From an uncultured Prevotellaceae bacterium (GTDB taxonomy: Bacteria > Bacteroidota > Bacteroidia > Bacteroidales > Bacteroidaceae): DNA of 64,000 nucleotides. Location of the stretch: assembly GCA_900315565.1 (NCBI GenBank), contig OMZS01000026.1, positions 1 through 64,000 of the forward strand, written 5' to 3'. Below, one piece after another: positions 1,829 to 30,331 of the stretch. The notes under the pieces are model-generated. The model did no database searches. It was not told the DNA's origin and saw only the letters and a program-made list of their open reading frames with translations. Every line of letters starts with the position of its first letter. Positions within the stretch are counted from its first letter, which is position 1. Position numbers and translations under genes: made by a program.

Positions 1829-3124
1829 TTACTTGAGGCGAATGATGTCGCTCCAACGTGTGGTGGGGTTCTTTGATTTGAAGTCGTGCTTGATGGCATT
1901 GGCAAAGACATCGGCCTTGCCTTTGCCGTTCTTCTGGGTGTACTGTTGCGCGCCTATGACGATGGTTTCACTGCCATTGAGTCGGTTGATTCTATCTACG
2001 ACGGCATCCAAGCGTCTGTACTTCTCAATCTGCTCTGCATTTATGTCGAACAGGTCTTGCTGAATGGGAGATTTGGGCGATATGCCCATGACAATGACGC
2101 CAGCTTTTTTATACTGATAACCTTCCTTGAAAATGCTCTTTAGCACCTCTATGGCTGCCTGGACGATGGGTATGGTGGAATTGGAGGGTGTGATGAGCCG
2201 CGTTTCCTGATAATTCCAATATTGCGCCAAATCTTCCCTAAAGGCATTGGTATTCACAAAGACGCCAATGATGGATGCAACTGTGGATTGTTTTCTCAGT
2301 TTCTCCGCACACTTGCTGGCATAGTTGGAAACATGGGTCCTTAATGTCGCAAAGTCGCTCACCATGCCGTTGAAGCTTCTGCTCGTACAAATGCTTTTCT
2401 TCTTGGCCAGTTCTTCGTTCGGCACACAATCCTCGCCGTTGAGTTCTTGCCATGTTCTGACAATATTGATATTGTTGAAGGTGGCCCGTACCCAATCTTT
2501 GTGATGCGCGGCAAAGTCAAAGGCCGTTTTGCATCCCAAGGCCTGCAGCTTTGCAGCATACCTTCTTCCTATGCCCCAAACATCCTCTATGGGCAGCCAC
2601 TTCAATGCGGCTATGCGGTTTTCGTCATTGTCGATGATGCAGCAGTGCCTATATACGGAGAACTTTTTAGCCAGCCTCGATGCAATCTTGGCCAATGTTT
2701 TGTTGGGTGCAAGCCCTATTGATACAGGCATGCCTACCTCTCTTTTGACTCGTTCGTAAAGATGCTCGCCCCATTTCTGCAGATTGACATCCTCCATGCC
2801 GTCGAGGTAAACGAAGCACTCATCAATGGAATAGCGAAAAAAGGCGGGTGCCTCTTTGCTGATGATGCTCACCACCCTTGCTGTCAGTTCGCCATAAAGT
2901 TCGTAGTTGCTACTGAACACGGCTATCTTTTGGTTGGGAAACTGTTGGGCTAACTGGTAATAGGGCGTTCCTTCTTTGATTCCGAGTGCTTTTGCCTCGT
3001 TGGAACGGGCCACCACACACCCGTCGTTGTTGCTTAACACAACAACGACCTTTCCTTCCAGATCGGGTCTGAAGACCCGCTCGCAGCTCACGTAACAATT
3101 ATCACAGTCGATGATTCCGTACAT
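1829..3124 (-). CDS. umuC: Error-prone DNA polymerase V catalytic subunit
   Basis: Y-family DNA polymerase that copies past DNA damage in partnership with processed UmuD. At 431 residues it matches the usual UmuC size. The N-terminus shows the metal-binding [13 protein letters not shown] (residues 6-18), and the palm carries YSIDE (98-102) with the catalytic acidic pair. Helix-hairpin-helix and little-finger regions follow, and QQDLF near residue 370 fits a sliding-clamp-binding motif. The partner umuD lies upstream in the same direction but is separated by 303 bases of repeats instead of the usual overlap, so co-transcription is uncertain. Start chosen at ATG 3122-3124 because [11 protein letters not shown] is the expected first segment. 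No truncation seen. Confidence 0.93.
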
Positions 3125-3144
3125 TTATCTTCTCCCTGGTTTTA

Positions 3145-3425
3145 TTGGAGTTCAAGGAGTTACAAGGAGTTGCAAGGAGTTACAAGACAATAGATAATTC
3201 ATAATGCATAATGCATAATACACATTAAAATTTTTTATTTATCATCATTAATCTTTCATTTTCAGAAAGTGCCTCAGAGTAAAGACTAATGTCTTGTAAC
3301 TCCTTGTGACTCCTTGAACTCCTTGTGACTCCTTGAACTCCTTGTGACTCCTTGAACTCCTTGTGACTCCTTGAACTTCTTGTAACTCCTTGAACTCCTT
3401 GTAACTCCTTGAACTCCTTGTATCA
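3145..3425. repeat. Inverted and tandem repeat spacer between umuD and umuC
   Basis: Left arm at about 3145-3186 is built of GGAGTTCAA/GGAGTTACAA units. The right side, 3291-3425, is a longer run of the complementary units TTGAACTCC and TTGTGACTCC. GGAGTTACAAGAC (3174-3186) is exactly complementary to GTCTTGTAACTCC (3291-3303), so transcripts could form a long imperfect hairpin around an AT-rich loop. No open frame of note; this fills the space between the two polymerase genes. Confidence 0.85.
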
Positions 3426-25032: not shown

Positions 25033-27141
25033 TTACTTACTATACTCAATGGTGCGCACTTGCTGCTGGTTGTTGGTTTGCTTGGCATTCACCTTTTCTC
25101 CTCCACTGAAATTCCAGCGCAGGGTTAAGCTGATGGTTTGGCAGGGTTCATGGTTGGCGTATCTGCTCTCGAATCCGTTGCCACTGATGTCGAGCACACG
25201 GTGGTGCCTAAGCAAAAGTCCTTCGGCGGATAGTGAAAGGCCTTTCCCGAAATCGTGGTCTATGCTGGCCCTTAGTTGCGATACGCCGTGGTAGAGTCTG
25301 TTCGAGGCGCGGTAGGTGGGTTCCCAGTTGCCGCTCATTGTGGCCGATGTCTTCTTGGTCAGGCTGAAGTTGTGATTCATGCTGAAGTATGTCCGTTTCT
25401 GCCACTTGTCGTAGAGTATTCCTCCCACCGTTTCGTTCTGGTTGGCCAGCAGAAAGCGTGCCATCAGGCTAGTTGTCCACCAAGCCGTCAGTTTCTTTCT
25501 GAAATTAGCCGAGATGCCGGCAAATTTTGCGGTGAGCTCGTTGTTGCGTGGCTGCACCATTATGACTCCGTCGGCTCTGGTGGTCTGCTCATACACGCGG
25601 TTGTTGTAGTCCTGCTCGTAGTAGGCCGACAGCCTCAGCGTATTGTCGAAAAGCGACAAGGTTATCCCCACAGCATCTTCCGAGGGTGCTATCAGATTCG
25701 GGTTTCCCATGCTGCACTCGTTGTTGGCCACCCATAGGATGTTGGGGTTGAGCGTGGAATAGGGCAGCGCGCTGATGGCGTGGCGATAGTAGGCGCTCAG
25801 CTCGTGCTTTCCGTCTTTGTCGAGCGGTATAGATGCCTGTACCGTGGGGTTTATCGAGTTCTGGGTATTGGTCACGTCGGTTCCCTTCAGTCTGTCGGTG
25901 TATTCTATGCGGTTCATCTGCCAGTTCAGTCCTGCAGTCCATTTCAGTCTTTTTATCTTACCTTCCAGTGTGGCAAATGCCAGGGGGGTAAGTCCTTTGG
26001 CCCTTGTGTCTTCGGCCTCGCTGTTCAGCCGCTGGTTGCCTGAGAATGCGTTGTTGGTGGTGTTGTATTCTACCACTTGCTGCTGGACCGATGCTCCTAT
26101 GCTTAGTGTCGGAGCATTCTGCTGTTCCGCCCTGCCCAGTCGCATCTGCAGCTTGGCCTCCAGTTCTGCCAGCGTGGTCCGTTCTTTCGTGTCGTAGTGT
26201 TCATCGCCGTCGTAGCAGGTGTTTTGTTTTTTCTGCTGGCTCAGCAGGTCGGCGTTCACTTCTATCCTCATCCCCCTGTCGGCAAGCTGGTTGATATATT
26301 GCAGCGTTCCCTGCACCAGGCTGCGCTTGGTGTCGTTGTCGAGCACATTGGGGGTGGTGCCATTCGTCAGAGTGCTCCTTTTCTGCTCATTGCCGTGGTA
26401 GAAGGTGCGCAGAGCACCGCCCAGCGTGCTGTGGCCGTCAATGTCGTAGGTGATGCTCAGCCTGTTGAAGGGCAGACTGATGCTGTAGGTGTTTTCGGTT
26501 TGCTCGTCCGTCTTCTGGCCGTTGTTGTATAGATAGGAATTTGCTTCGGCCCCCTTTTGCCGTCCGCCGTACCAGTATATGTTGTCGACGATGCTCCACC
26601 GTCCGCTCACGAAGTTGATCAGCGCGTAGGGCATCAGTGTGGTGCGTCCGTATTTCAGGTCTGTGTCGGTGGTCATTCTCAGGTTGCCATAGTGTCCGTT
26701 GTCCTTCGGTTTCCTCATGGTCAGCCTCAGGATGCCTCCCTTGTTGGTGGCATTATTACTGCTGCCTGCCACGTATTCCACTTCTGCCGAGTTCAGCACG
26801 TCGGCAGGCAGTTTGAGTATGTCGTCGCTGCTAACCTTCATTCCGTTCAGGTAGAAAATACTTACCGGCTTTCCGTCGGTTTTCACCACTCCGTCTTCCA
26901 CGCTGATGCCTGGCAGGAATCCCAGCAGCTGGCCCACCGTCTTTCCCTTGCAGAGCGGCTCGTCCTTCAGGTTGATGGTGTAGCCACGTGCCGAGTTGCG
27001 GATGCGGCTGGCCTGGATAGTTACTTCTTGAAGCTCCATCTCACGGAAAATACTGTCGGCTCTGGCTATGCTGTCAGTTTGCTGTGCAAAAGATGACACG
27101 GTGAAAAAGAGGAGAATCGGAAGAATGTGTTGTCTTTTCAT
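25033..27141 (-). CDS. TonB-dependent outer-membrane receptor, OMP_b-brl_3 type
   Basis: A 702-residue outer-membrane receptor. The signal peptide is MKRQHILPILLFFTVSSFAQ; a plug domain runs from about residue 35 to 150 (LQEVTIQASRI, LLGFLPGISVEDG, VEYVAGSSNNATNKGGILRL); the rest is a beta-barrel ending in SLTLRWNFSGG. It has no CarboxypepD-type N-terminal extension and no SusD partner, so it belongs to the 'outer membrane beta-barrel' group rather than classical SusC. It starts 3 bases after the stop of a SPASM-only protein, which implies translational coupling and a shared job. The substrate may be a modified peptide; that is inference from the neighbour. Confidence 0.82.
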   Translation of the reverse strand: MKRQHILPILLFFTVSSFAQQTDSIARADSIFREMELQEVTIQASRIRNSARGYTINLKDEPLCKGKTVGQLLGFLPGISVEDGVVKTDGKPVSIFYLNGMKVSSDDILKLPADVLNSAEVEYVAGSSNNATNKGGILRLTMRKPKDNGHYGNLRMTTDTDLKYGRTTLMPYALINFVSGRWSIVDNIYWYGGRQKGAEANSYLYNNGQKTDEQTENTYSISLPFNRLSITYDIDGHSTLGGALRTFYHGNEQKRSTLTNGTTPNVLDNDTKRSLVQGTLQYINQLADRGMRIEVNADLLSQQKKQNTCYDGDEHYDTKERTTLAELEAKLQMRLGRAEQQNAPTLSIGASVQQQVVEYNTTNNAFSGNQRLNSEAEDTRAKGLTPLAFATLEGKIKRLKWTAGLNWQMNRIEYTDRLKGTDVTNTQNSINPTVQASIPLDKDGKHELSAYYRHAISALPYSTLNPNILWVANNECSMGNPNLIAPSEDAVGITLSLFDNTLRLSAYYEQDYNNRVYEQTTRADGVIMVQPRNNELTAKFAGISANFRKKLTAWWTTSLMARFLLANQNETVGGILYDKWQKRTYFSMNHNFSLTKKTSATMSGNWEPTYRASNRLYHGVSQLRASIDHDFGKGLSLSAEGLLLRHHRVLDISGNGFESRYANHEPCQTISLTLRWNFSGGEKVNAKQTNNQQQVRTIEYSK

Positions 27142-27144
27142 GTA

Positions 27145-27483
27145 CTATTTCTTTATTCGTGGATATATATTATGCTCAAAACATTTGTTTTTGTAAAACG
27201 TACTTTTTTCTTTTGTATTGTTCTTAGAGGGACATTCTGTTTCGCTTGTTTCCATTTTGTTTTGTGAGCAAACTCCACAAATAGGGAGAATGCTGCAAGA
27301 ATGACATACTTTTAACAACCTTTTCTTTTGTCTTTTTATAAATAGTTCGGATGTGACAATTTCCCCATTGCTTTTAATGACCCCATCTCTGCTTCCTTGA
27401 TCGAAATTTCTTGCCGTACAATGGAAAATATCTCCATCGTAGTTGATAACAATATTATCTGTATAATCTGCATAGCACCTCAT
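27145..27483 (-). CDS. SPASM-domain protein without radical SAM core
   Basis: A 112-residue protein matching the C-terminal Fe-S (SPASM) domain of radical SAM peptide maturases. The signature is complete: C3-x13-G17-x4-C22, then C60-x2-C63-x5-C69-x2-C72 (VCHSCSILPICGVC), with later cysteines C84 and C101. The radical SAM CxxxCxxC domain is absent: the frame upstream is open for 33 codons to a stop at 27583-27585 but has no start codon. It may be a decayed maturase or a stand-alone SPASM protein. The second is supported by a consensus promoter at 27617-27648 and by tight coupling (3 bases) to the TonB receptor. The start is the only ATG, just before C3. Confidence 0.6.
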   Translation of the reverse strand: MRCYADYTDNIVINYDGDIFHCTARNFDQGSRDGVIKSNGEIVTSELFIKRQKKRLLKVCHSCSILPICGVCSQNKMETSETECPSKNNTKEKSTFYKNKCFEHNIYPRIKK

Positions 27484-27616
27484 TATGCGATATTCAGGAT
27501 CATCAAGATTTGTGCGGAAAACTAATGATGATACATGACATGTTACAGGCGAAAAGCATGGAAATGAATAGGAAAAATGTTTTTACTTTCATAGTTAATT
27601 ATCTTTTTGGTTTCTG

Positions 27617-27648
27617 CAAAATTAGGATTTCGTTTTGTTACTTCCAAA
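27617..27648 (-). promoter_or_regulatory. Promoter for the SPASM/TonB-receptor operon
   Basis: On the minus strand: TTTG (plus CAAA 27645-27648), 20-nt spacer, TAATTTTG (plus CAAAATTA 27617-27624). The predicted leader to the SPASM ATG is about 125 nt. Confidence 0.6.
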
Positions 27649-27723
27649 TTTTTTGGCACTTATTTTTCGGGGGCGTTGCAAAATTCGAATACAGCTTAAC
27701 GCTCTGGTGTTCAATGTTTTAAA

Positions 27724-27741
27724 TATAGCTATATAGCTATA
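27724..27741. promoter_or_regulatory. 18-bp perfect palindrome between divergent promoters
   Basis: TATAGCTATATAGCTATA is its own reverse complement. Its centre (27732.5) lies within two bases of the midpoint between the -33 boxes of the leftward SPASM promoter (27648) and the rightward regulator promoter (27821). It is a good candidate operator for the divergently encoded HTH regulator. Confidence 0.5.
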
Positions 27742-27820
27742 ATGAAAGGTGAAGATGCAACGCTTAGGTTATTTGGCAATTAAGAAAAAGATGGTGGAAA
27801 GATAAAATAGTTTAGAAAAA

Positions 27821-27852
27821 TTTGTATGTCCCGACAAAGATTGATAACTTTG
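27821..27852 (+). promoter_or_regulatory. Promoter of the TPR/HTH regulator
   Basis: TTTG at 27821-27824, 20-nt spacer, TAACTTTG at 27845-27852. The message would start about 20 nt before the ATG at 27879. Confidence 0.7.
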
Positions 27853-27878
27853 CGAGGAAAAAGAATAGTTGCAGTTTT

Positions 27879-29498
27879 ATGAAAAGGTTTTTCTTGTTTT
27901 GGACTCTTTGCTCGAGCTTTGTTTTTTTATCGTCTTGCAGACACACTTCTGAATGCAGGAAACAGTTGGCGGAAGTAGAACAAGTGATAGAACTGTATCC
28001 TGACAGTGCATGGAAGATGTTGCAGAAGATAGACTCGGCAAGTGTCGCTGATGGAGAAGAAAAGGCTGTATATAATCTGCTCATGACGGAGCTGAAATAC
28101 CGTTATTATTTGCCCACTCCTAATGATTCTGTTATACGATATAGCTCCGATTTCTTTGCCGACAATGAAAATCCGCACTATCAGGCCACAGCATATTATT
28201 ATCATGGGTGTGTACTTCTGGAACTTGGAAAGCGTATGGAAGCAATGCAGATGATGAAAAAGGCAGAAGAAAGTTCGGGTAAGACTGATGACGAACTGTT
28301 GCGGAACAAAATCTATGAAAAACTATTCCACATGAATGTTAATACGAGTAATAGTTTGTTGGCGATGAAGTATGCAAGATTGTTTTTAAAAAGCTCGGAG
28401 CAGTTGCGTGATACGTTATTGATTTGTAGGGCCTACGATGTCATTTCGCTTGAATTTACTCGCTACAATAATAAGGATAGCGTCAGGTTTTATAAAGATA
28501 AAAGCTGGCAACTGGCAGAGAAGGCAAATATAAAGTATGCGCAGTTGTTAGCAAACAAGGCAGAGGAACTGATAAATGACAGCCTTTATGATGATGCAAG
28601 GGTTTTATTGGAAGAAGCTATAAGAATGGAACAACAGCCAGAATATGTCAAACTACTTGGAGATGTCTATAATCATAAAGGTGAAAACGAGAAAGCTTTT
28701 CTATGTTATAATAAGGTATTCGCATTTAATAATATAGGAAACAATATTATTGCCTATAAGGCTTTATCAAATCTGTATTTACGGCAGCAGAACTACAAGG
28801 AGTCGAGGCGGATGCTGTGGATGGCTGATAGCCTGGTTTATGCGCAAAGCGAACAGGCACAGTCTATGCCGCTAACTATGTTACAGCAGGAGTATGATCA
28901 ATCGATTGCCAGTCTGGCAGCCAGCCAGCGGCTAAACAGATGGCTGGCGGGTTTGTTGGTGCTAATTGTGTTGTTGGCCGTTGGAATCATTTTCTATCTG
29001 CTGAAGGTGAAGAAGCTGAAAAGTGTGTTAAGTGAGAATGTGCAGCGATATAATGAGACACTTCTTACGGTGAACCAGATGGAGTCAGCTGAGAAACTGA
29101 ACCAACAGAGAATCAGCGCACAGGAAAGCAGCATGGCCCAGATGAGCAGTGAACTTACAGATTTGAACAATTTGGTGGATAGGCAAAGGAAAAGACTGGA
29201 ACAGCAGCGTAAGGAGATGGCTCAAAGTCTTGGACGCGGAAAGGAACTGTTTGAGAAAGCCAAGCGCGGAGAACCATTCGCTAATTTCCAGTCAGCCGAC
29301 GAACAAAGTTTCATAGACTATTATGCATTCTCCAACAGCGAACGCTTTGCTCGGCTGATGATGGTCTATGGAACCCCTACACGACGACTGGTCACCTTTC
29401 TAATATTGTGCGATATGGGACTGAGTGACAAGGAAATCCAGCAAGTTCTCCACATCAGTTCATCTACCATCCGCTCCTATCGCTATCGTCTGAAGTAA
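27879..29498 (+). CDS. Membrane TPR regulator with C-terminal HTH
   Basis: A 539-residue Bacteroidetes-type regulator. The N-terminus has a lipoprotein-like signal (MKRFFLFWTLCSSFVFLSSC). TPR-like helices cover about residues 25-350. A transmembrane helix follows (WLAGLLVLIVLLAVGIIFYL), then a coiled coil rich in Gln/Glu, and finally a LuxR-like helix-turn-helix (LCDMGLSDKEIQQVLHISSS then TIRSYRYRLK). The layout suggests a sensor outside the cytoplasm linked to DNA binding inside. ATG 27879 is chosen because it follows the promoter and starts the signal sequence. It diverges from the SPASM/TonB-receptor operon with a palindrome midway, so it probably controls that operon and itself. The signal is unknown. 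Confidence 0.75.
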   Translation: MKRFFLFWTLCSSFVFLSSCRHTSECRKQLAEVEQVIELYPDSAWKMLQKIDSASVADGEEKAVYNLLMTELKYRYYLPTPNDSVIRYSSDFFADNENPHYQATAYYYHGCVLLELGKRMEAMQMMKKAEESSGKTDDELLRNKIYEKLFHMNVNTSNSLLAMKYARLFLKSSEQLRDTLLICRAYDVISLEFTRYNNKDSVRFYKDKSWQLAEKANIKYAQLLANKAEELINDSLYDDARVLLEEAIRMEQQPEYVKLLGDVYNHKGENEKAFLCYNKVFAFNNIGNNIIAYKALSNLYLRQQNYKESRRMLWMADSLVYAQSEQAQSMPLTMLQQEYDQSIASLAASQRLNRWLAGLLVLIVLLAVGIIFYLLKVKKLKSVLSENVQRYNETLLTVNQMESAEKLNQQRISAQESSMAQMSSELTDLNNLVDRQRKRLEQQRKEMAQSLGRGKELFEKAKRGEPFANFQSADEQSFIDYYAFSNSERFARLMMVYGTPTRRLVTFLILCDMGLSDKEIQQVLHISSSTIRSYRYRLK

Positions 29499-29776: not shown

Positions 29777-30331
29777 TCAATGAGCGTTCATTACGCGTAT
29801 TTTCTTTCCCTCTTTGTTCCAAATGAATATCCAACTGCCTTTGCGGCTGGTAATGGTGTTATTTGACACACCCACTATCTCACCTACGTCTGAAACGTTC
29901 ATCGTCTTCAGTGTCCTGCCCTTGGCGTCGCAGATGTGGTAATAAGAGTAGCGTTTCGCAACGAAGAAATCGCTGCCCCACCCTTTCAGTTCTCCCACGC
30001 TGCCGCGCGACAGTCCACAAATCCGCTTGCCCTTTTCATCATAGACATAGTACCAGTTTTTTGTCTCCTCTATATATGAAATCTGCGGATAAGCGAGAGC
30101 AGTCTGAGCTTGCTCAGAGACAGCCGAGCGTGAGCAGGTTATGCAAATCTGCGGATAAGCGAGAGCAGTCTGAGCTTGCTCAGAGACAGCCGAGCGTGAG
30201 CAGGTTATGCAAATCTGCGGATAAGCGAGGGCTGTCTGAGTTTGCTCAGAGACTACCGAGCGAGAACTGGTTTGTTCCGCTTGAGCAGCCATCGCCAACA
30301 TGAGCATCACGATGATAAAAAGTTTCTTCAT
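29777..30331 (-). CDS. Secreted WG-like protein with 22-residue repeats
   Basis: A 184-residue exported protein. The signal peptide is MKKLFIIVMLMLAMAAQAEQ. Then come three copies of a 22-residue unit (SRSAVSEQAQTALAYPQICI plus TC), encoded by 66-bp tandem repeats at 30079-30276; the first two DNA copies are identical. The mature end has WG-like strands: WYYVYDEKGKRICGLSRG, YSYYHICDAKGRTLKTMN and WIFIWNKEGKKIRVMNAH. The repeat lies right after the signal peptide, so copy number can change protein length without shifting frame (66 is a multiple of 3). The function is unknown. It has its own consensus promoter 23 bases upstream. Confidence 0.65.
   Translation of the reverse strand: MKKLFIIVMLMLAMAAQAEQTSSRSVVSEQTQTALAYPQICITCSRSAVSEQAQTALAYPQICITCSRSAVSEQAQTALAYPQISYIEETKNWYYVYDEKGKRICGLSRGSVGELKGWGSDFFVAKRYSYYHICDAKGRTLKTMNVSDVGEIVGVSNNTITSRKGSWIFIWNKEGKKIRVMNAH
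30079..30276. repeat. 66-bp tandem repeat, three copies
   Basis: Units begin at 30079, 30145 and 30211, each starting AAATCTGCGGATAAGCGAG. The first two agree over their length and the third has several changes. The array is in frame in the secreted protein gene. Confidence 0.9.

Follow-up and report, generated by a model that had tools for sequence, protein, structure and literature searches.

The 64,000-nucleotide stretch of DNA analysed here (the window) contains a 112-amino-acid open reading frame (ORF) located directly upstream of a gene for an outer-membrane beta-barrel protein (OMP) and opposite a gene for a membrane regulator. This locus is very probably what a deletion has left of a Prevotella radical SAM/SPASM peptide (RiPP) cluster with a double-glycine (GG) leader, and it most likely shows the ordinary gene decay of a cluster kind that is already known. 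This reading is based on the full-length relatives of the ORF, a single match to such a maturase in the genome (residues 301 to 413), homology that runs across the annotated start codon, similar deletions elsewhere, and a start codon 25 nt below the minus-strand promoter, as in the comparable loci L079 and L080 (26 nt). The features of the locus are as follows.

25033..27141, minus strand: intact outer-membrane beta-barrel gene, OMP_b-brl_3, 702 amino acids (PF14905, 115 bits), in the OMP position of radical SAM peptide clusters
27145..27483, minus strand: 112-amino-acid ORF, the SPASM tail of a radical SAM/SPASM maturase gene (TIGR04085 score, alignment with the L064 maturase, seven conserved cysteines)
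27484..27537, minus strand: in-frame radical SAM-derived sequence 5' of the annotated ATG (the L064 and L121 maturases match from residue 301 onward, starting at position 27537)
27503..27592, minus strand: 29-amino-acid ORF, signal-peptide-like, beginning MKVKTFFLFISMLFACNMSC, in a different frame from the SPASM ORF
27537..27545, minus strand: approximate, putative deletion junction that joins the signal-peptide-like start to the radical SAM tail, placed where the radical SAM homology ends (27537), inside the 29-amino-acid ORF
27617..27648, minus strand: Bacteroidota-type promoter TTTG-N20-TAnnTTTG of the minus-strand genes (motif match)
27724..27741, no strand: 18-bp perfect palindrome TATAGCTATATAGCTATA (exact), also tandem copies of an 8-bp unit
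27821..27852, plus strand: Bacteroidota-type promoter TTTG-N20-TAnnTTTG of the regulator gene (motif match)
27879..29498, plus strand: intact TPR/transmembrane/HTH regulator gene, 539 amino acids (weak domain matches and a hydrophobic peak)

The initial annotation had described the 112-residue protein as carrying the cysteine signature of a SPASM domain, as having no radical SAM core, and as coupled by 3 bases to a receptor-like gene, and our results agreed with all three descriptions. The protein scored above the cutoffs of the SPASM profile TIGR04085 (36.3 bits; cutoff, 27) and of PF13186 (21.6 bits; cutoff, 21.5). Its cysteines are at positions 3, 22, 60, 63, 69, 72, 84, and 101. Conservation of the cysteines and of the ATG position had been suggested as checks. 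Seven columns that were 98 to 100% cysteine across 98 aligned SPASM domains were all retained in the window ORF, with C101 outside them. The ATG did not prove to be a boundary: the radical SAM homology, previously overlooked, continued through the annotated ATG at 27483 for about 18 codons upstream (to 27537).

The 112-amino-acid ORF aligned with residues 322 to 434 of the 434-amino-acid maturase of L064, the fullest intact cluster, and is homologous to the C-terminal part (about a quarter) of full-length radical SAM/SPASM maturases of ~430 amino acids. It has the C-terminal seven-cysteine SPASM domain in common with such maturases (TIGR04085), but the window sequence spans only residues ~301 to 434 of its relatives, and the radical SAM barrel with its CxxxCxxC motif is absent. 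When the whole genome was searched with the L064 maturase (E values up to 0.001), the sole match was to residues 301 to 413, in the window, and no other part of a maturase of this type was detected.

The relatives of the ORF were surveyed in a sample of 398 genomes from a larger genus, among them the window's own. Matches were found in 28 of the 398 genomes, at 31 places; G155, a weak partial match without a radical SAM ORF, was left out, which gave 30 loci, and G036, of another family and a partial match near a contig end, was not counted. Full maturases of 421 to 447 amino acids were present at 17 loci, 2 were ended by contig ends (G392 and G332), and 11 were broken inside a contig (the window, G360, G231, G152, one of two loci in G218, G187, G102, G296, G389, G209, and G250), although draft-genome errors may explain part of the frameshifts and stops seen there. 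Two pairs of loci, L071/L072 and L107/L116, had identical lengths and scores and could represent recent copies. A first scan of GTDB contigs, with the 112-amino-acid ORF alone as the query, confirmed none of 43 candidates. For a second scan the query was an alignment that included relatives; of 152 relative-encoding stretches the best 80 were kept, and 70 of these 80 encoded at least 399 amino acids with the CxxxCxxC motif, and two of the remaining 10 (L145 and L165) ran to the end of their contig.

In a tree of the 98 SPASM domains, the window sequence fell within an 11-member clade (support, 0.91), with an inner group of 8 (support, 0.80), whose members come from Prevotella, Phocaeicola, Muribaculaceae, and Tannerellaceae. 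Nine members of the clade are full length and two are truncated, the window ORF and that of Phocaeicola intestinalis (L119). An intact locus was not found in any sister species. A family of stand-alone SPASM proteins was rejected as an explanation, since the relatives in the 398 genomes and the GTDB contigs were full maturases or broken or contig-cut ones. No paper on stand-alone SPASM proteins was found in the open-access library searched.

Fernandez-Cantos et al. 2023 (PMC10352776) describe Bacteroidales clusters that combine GG precursors, a radical SAM enzyme, an exporter, and an OMP, in some cases with a TPR protein. The window locus shares with these GG-leader/radical SAM/PCAT/OMP clusters the OMP gene, the radical SAM-derived gene, and an adjoining TPR-type protein, but it differs in having no precursor, radical SAM core, or C39 exporter. 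In L064 the gene order is regulator (on the opposite strand), DUF3244 protein (125 amino acids), GG precursor (64 amino acids, with a leader ending in ...LHGG and a Cys-rich core), radical SAM/SPASM maturase (434 amino acids), OMP (699 amino acids), and C39 peptidase ABC exporter (731 amino acids). The best NCBIfam matches of the L064 maturase, NF038107 (CefB) and the geopeptide-type TIGR04280, were both far below the cutoff. L063 has the same gene set, all in one direction, and the precursors of L062, L063, L064, L121, and L143 have NGNCKxxGWFDxNxNCxRC in common. Clusters of Prevotella falsenii DSM 22864 (L126, the same as L062; G017) and of uncultured Prevotella sp. RUG143 (L122, the same as L063; G132) have a SPASM domain of the same clade and a related OMP in common with the window; they differ from it in having a full maturase of 427 to 434 amino acids, a Cys-rich GG precursor, and an exporter gene (ended by the contig in L126). 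For three of the five nearest full-maturase clusters (L121, L126, and L143), no regulator or DUF3244-like gene was present among the few upstream genes listed.

What remains in the window is the promoters, the 29-residue signal-peptide-like start, the SPASM tail, the OMP gene, and the regulator gene. Searches of the window with three precursors gave no convincing match (best E value, 0.17), and a search of the genome with one precursor, run without a positive control, gave none; short precursors are hard to detect by similarity. An exporter ORF lay within 6 kb of the radical SAM ORF in 24 of the 30 genus loci; it was absent within this distance from the window, L070, L073, L108, and L114, and L109 was ended by its contig. 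No C39 peptidase ABC exporter was found at the window locus, nor was any piece of an exporter found between the OMP gene and the next gene. The only ABC-domain matches in the window were partial, weak, and far from the locus, at 59.9 to 60.6 kb, and are taken as another gene. The one C39 gene in the genome is on another contig (C18), and its product is 61% identical to the L064 exporter. It belongs to a locus (L206:4540-10283; C18:122539-128282) with genes for a 398-amino-acid protein that appears thioredoxin-like from its sequence, a 763-amino-acid outer-membrane-type protein, and the 737-amino-acid C39 peptidase ABC exporter. As no radical SAM ORF adjoins it, this gene was considered as the exporter of the window cluster and set aside as separate.

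The OMP gene follows the radical SAM-derived ORF directly, with a 3-nt gap to its start codon, as is characteristic of GG-leader radical SAM/PCAT clusters, and its product belongs to the beta-barrel family PF14905 (115 bits), which makes it at most a putative TonB-dependent receptor, and is related to the OMPs of such clusters. The nearest OMPs were 29 to 32% identical. Besides the window OMP, four relatives were found at 1e-70, three of which adjoin a full maturase and one of which (L117) does not. Both the highest-scoring OMP matches and the tree of SPASM domains led to the same clusters. Compared with five full-maturase clusters, the window had identities of 41 to 44% in SPASM and 29 to 31% over ~678 amino acids in the OMP; among those five clusters themselves, the values were 64 to 83% and 51 to 76%. 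The terminal branch of the window SPASM domain was the fifth longest of 98. Despite this long branch, the SPASM domain and the OMP diverge in parallel, so there is no clear sign of relaxed selection on the tail, and by sequence identity the comparison appears compatible with either relaxed selection or its absence.

The regulator gave weak TPR matches and C-terminal HTH matches, all below the Pfam cutoffs, and had a single strong hydrophobic peak near residue 357. The GerE profile scored 15.0 bits (cutoff, 23.5), and the HTH domain was not assigned to the LuxR/GerE type. Proteins related to the regulator were found at 1e-30 in 48 of the 398 genomes, the window's own genome included. In the window, ~three tandem copies of a 66-bp unit at 30080-30270, read as CSRSAVSEQAQTALAYPQICIT repeats, lie inside an ORF of 184 amino acids with a signal-peptide-like start (29777-30331, minus strand).

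Earlier descriptions of the regulator and spacer were also borne out: the opposite gene encodes a TPR/membrane/HTH protein (with domain matches below the cutoffs, as above), promoters of the full TTTG-N20-TAnnTTTG form are present at 27617-27648 (minus strand) and 27821-27852 (plus strand), and the 18-bp palindrome is exact. The promoter motif is one that we take to be the Bacteroidota consensus. With a spacing of 19 to 21, it occurred 10 times in the window, compared with a mean of 0.7 (maximum, 2) in 30 order-2 Markov copies, and none of 3,000 Markov copies of the spacer had a motif on each strand. The start of the regulator gene is 27 nt below the plus-strand promoter. Similarly placed promoters were found in L079, where the starts of the DUF3244-like gene and the regulator are 26 and 28 nt downstream, and in L080, where they are 26 and 19 nt downstream; L074 had the motif on one side, and the strict motif was missing from the other 7 of the 10 spacers compared. 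A palindrome of 18 bp appeared in 0.5% of 2,000 Markov copies of the 286-bp spacer, but 0.27 such palindromes are expected per 64 kb. It had been suggested that the palindrome be sought in orthologous spacers; 10 other spacers adjoining this type of regulator all lacked it, so a conserved operator was rejected. Shorter palindromes of 10 to 14 bp with other sequences occurred in 3 of the 10 (L079, L083, and L101). An 8-bp inverted pair, GCGTTGCA and TGCAACGC (27673-27680 and 27756-27763), flanks the palindrome and may be due to chance.

The 29-amino-acid ORF, which was not part of the initial annotation, stops 19 nt before the ATG of the SPASM ORF, and the radical SAM homology overlaps its end in a different frame. 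Its start codon is 25 nt below the minus-strand promoter; in L079 and L080 the corresponding distance for the DUF3244-like gene is 26 nt. It is probable that this ORF is the start of a lost secreted-protein gene and, judging from its position, that gene was probably DUF3244-like. A DUF3244-like gene was present in all 11 other radical SAM loci of the genus that hold this type of regulator, a count that holds partly by construction, as do other seed matches, because the seeds of the profile were chosen by hand on the basis of size, start, and position. Among 20 loci retrieved by similarity to the regulator, only 5 had such a gene and 15 showed none. The profile found nothing above threshold in the window spacer (best E value, 0.13), and of four DUF3244-like proteins tested only that of L064 passed the Pfam DUF3244 cutoff (25.7 versus 25 bits). 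The window's own genome had no DUF3244 match in a search that was positive in 1 of 14 control genomes. In the accessible part of PMC10434189, DUF3244 genes are named only in expression tables.

A single deletion is the simplest and likeliest account of this arrangement. It would have fused the signal-peptide start of the upstream secreted-protein gene (at about codon 17) to the radical SAM gene at about codon 301, with loss of both the Cys-rich precursor gene and the SAM-cleaving core, a span of ~2 to 2.2 kb if the spacing was as in L064. The joined upstream gene would probably have been DUF3244-like, but this step is weak, since the profile gives no support, 15 of the 20 regulator-fetched loci are without the gene, and L121, L126, and L143 have no listed regulator or DUF3244-like gene. 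The exporter gene below the OMP gene may have been lost separately or may never have been present. The minus-strand promoter, perhaps under the membrane regulator, may still drive the OMP gene, and the succession of the 29-amino-acid ORF, the SPASM ORF, and the OMP gene with gaps of 19 and 3 nt could allow expression of the OMP to continue. Any product of the SPASM ORF would at most be incidental to translation that leads on to the OMP, and the OMP itself may be retained as a putative receptor or immunity protein for the peptide.

Comparable junctions were found in other genomes, two of them (those of L070 and L111) belonging to the same genus. In L070 (G152), a DUF3244-like gene is broken in mid-domain and joined to radical SAM sequence just before the IWQ motif, and the resulting 145-amino-acid SPASM ORF is followed by a 780-amino-acid OMP gene with no exporter within 6 kb. 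In L111 (G250; 2608-3303, minus strand), a GG leader is fused in frame to the SPASM part of the maturase (231 amino acids) and the exporter is retained. L070 and L111 thus resemble the window in that an upstream cluster gene is joined by deletion to the SPASM part, but they have other junctions. In L119 (Phocaeicola intestinalis), a 5'-truncated radical SAM gene with a 189-amino-acid tail is accompanied by a 778-amino-acid OMP and a truncated exporter. The junctions of L070, L111, L119, and the window differ and therefore represent separate events.

Several further loci were observed in the surveys. L110:7407-8886 (G209) has a 343-amino-acid maturase ORF that is without its N-terminal part, with no GG precursor flagged and with CxxxCxxC, OMP, and exporter kept; it is probably another deletion, below a DUF3244-like gene. 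L117:3524-5845 (minus strand; G137) has a relative of the window OMP (29%) and no adjoining maturase-sized ORF, and is possibly another OMP-only case. L146:7477-8701 has, between two ORFs of ~970 amino acids, three closely spaced ORFs: one of 207 amino acids whose beginning resembles a C39 exporter, one that is SPASM-only, and one that is Cys-rich and like a GG precursor; pieces very similar to these occur in L136 in a different order.

The initial annotation had offered two interpretations, a stand-alone Fe-S protein or peptide system and a remnant of a peptide-maturation locus still under control. The latter fits our results, with control being read from the promoter sequence. The former found no support, given that most relatives are full length (70 of the best 80 GTDB loci and 17 of 30 genus loci) and that the homology crosses the ATG. 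The annotation would have been abandoned if close relatives were always full maturases, only this strain was truncated, and the palindrome was not conserved; most relatives are in fact full length and the 10 other spacers lack the palindrome, so this is largely the situation found, except that other truncated strains exist. A functional SPASM-only protein, either a stand-alone Fe-S protein working alongside the OMP and regulator or a partner in trans of another radical SAM enzyme in the cell, is very unlikely. The seven cysteines and the frame are kept, the coupling to the OMP gene is tight, and L070 has a similar regulator/DUF3244-like/SPASM-only/OMP arrangement. However, the start codon of the ORF sits within homologous radical SAM sequence, the genome has no second match to the L064 maturase, no precursor was found in a genome search without a positive control, and the junction in L070 is elsewhere in both genes, which indicates separate events rather than one inherited design. 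The retention of the seven SPASM cysteines and an open frame also counts against a deletion remnant, as an old neutral remnant might have lost them, and so do the lack of an intact locus in any sister species found and the strict promoter motif missing from 7 of 10 other spacers. It is extremely unlikely that an assembly or sequencing artefact joined two places. The genome is a draft of 40 contigs, but it is 99.97% complete, the locus is inside an 85-kb contig, no other piece of a maturase was found, and comparable junctions are present in other genomes.

It is also possible, if somewhat unlikely, that after the loss of production the OMP, together with its regulator, was kept by selection for survival against, or uptake of, the product of producing strains. 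This reading is compatible with a deletion remnant and does not exclude it. The frames of the OMP and regulator genes are intact, while the precursor, core, and exporter were not found at the locus; L070 and L119 retain a full-length OMP after loss of the radical SAM core, with the exporter absent or truncated, and L117 has a relative of the window OMP without an adjoining maturase-sized ORF. In L073, however, the OMP gene is broken as well. A broader and more speculative proposal, which we consider unlikely, is that these clusters repeatedly lose the peptide and core through deletions that leave a SPASM tail, often fused to upstream sequence, with the regulated OMP as a putative immunity or eavesdropping module and the tail perhaps as a small Fe-S protein (window, L070, and L119).

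Recognition of the window locus as a deletion remnant corrects a tempting misreading, in that a SPASM-only ORF beside a receptor-like gene here represents a decayed peptide cluster rather than a novel class of Fe-S protein. Should the OMP truly be kept after the loss of production, it would be indicated as the receptor or immunity factor of the peptide, and such loci would be natural states of resistance or cheating with respect to an uncharacterised family of Prevotella peptides.
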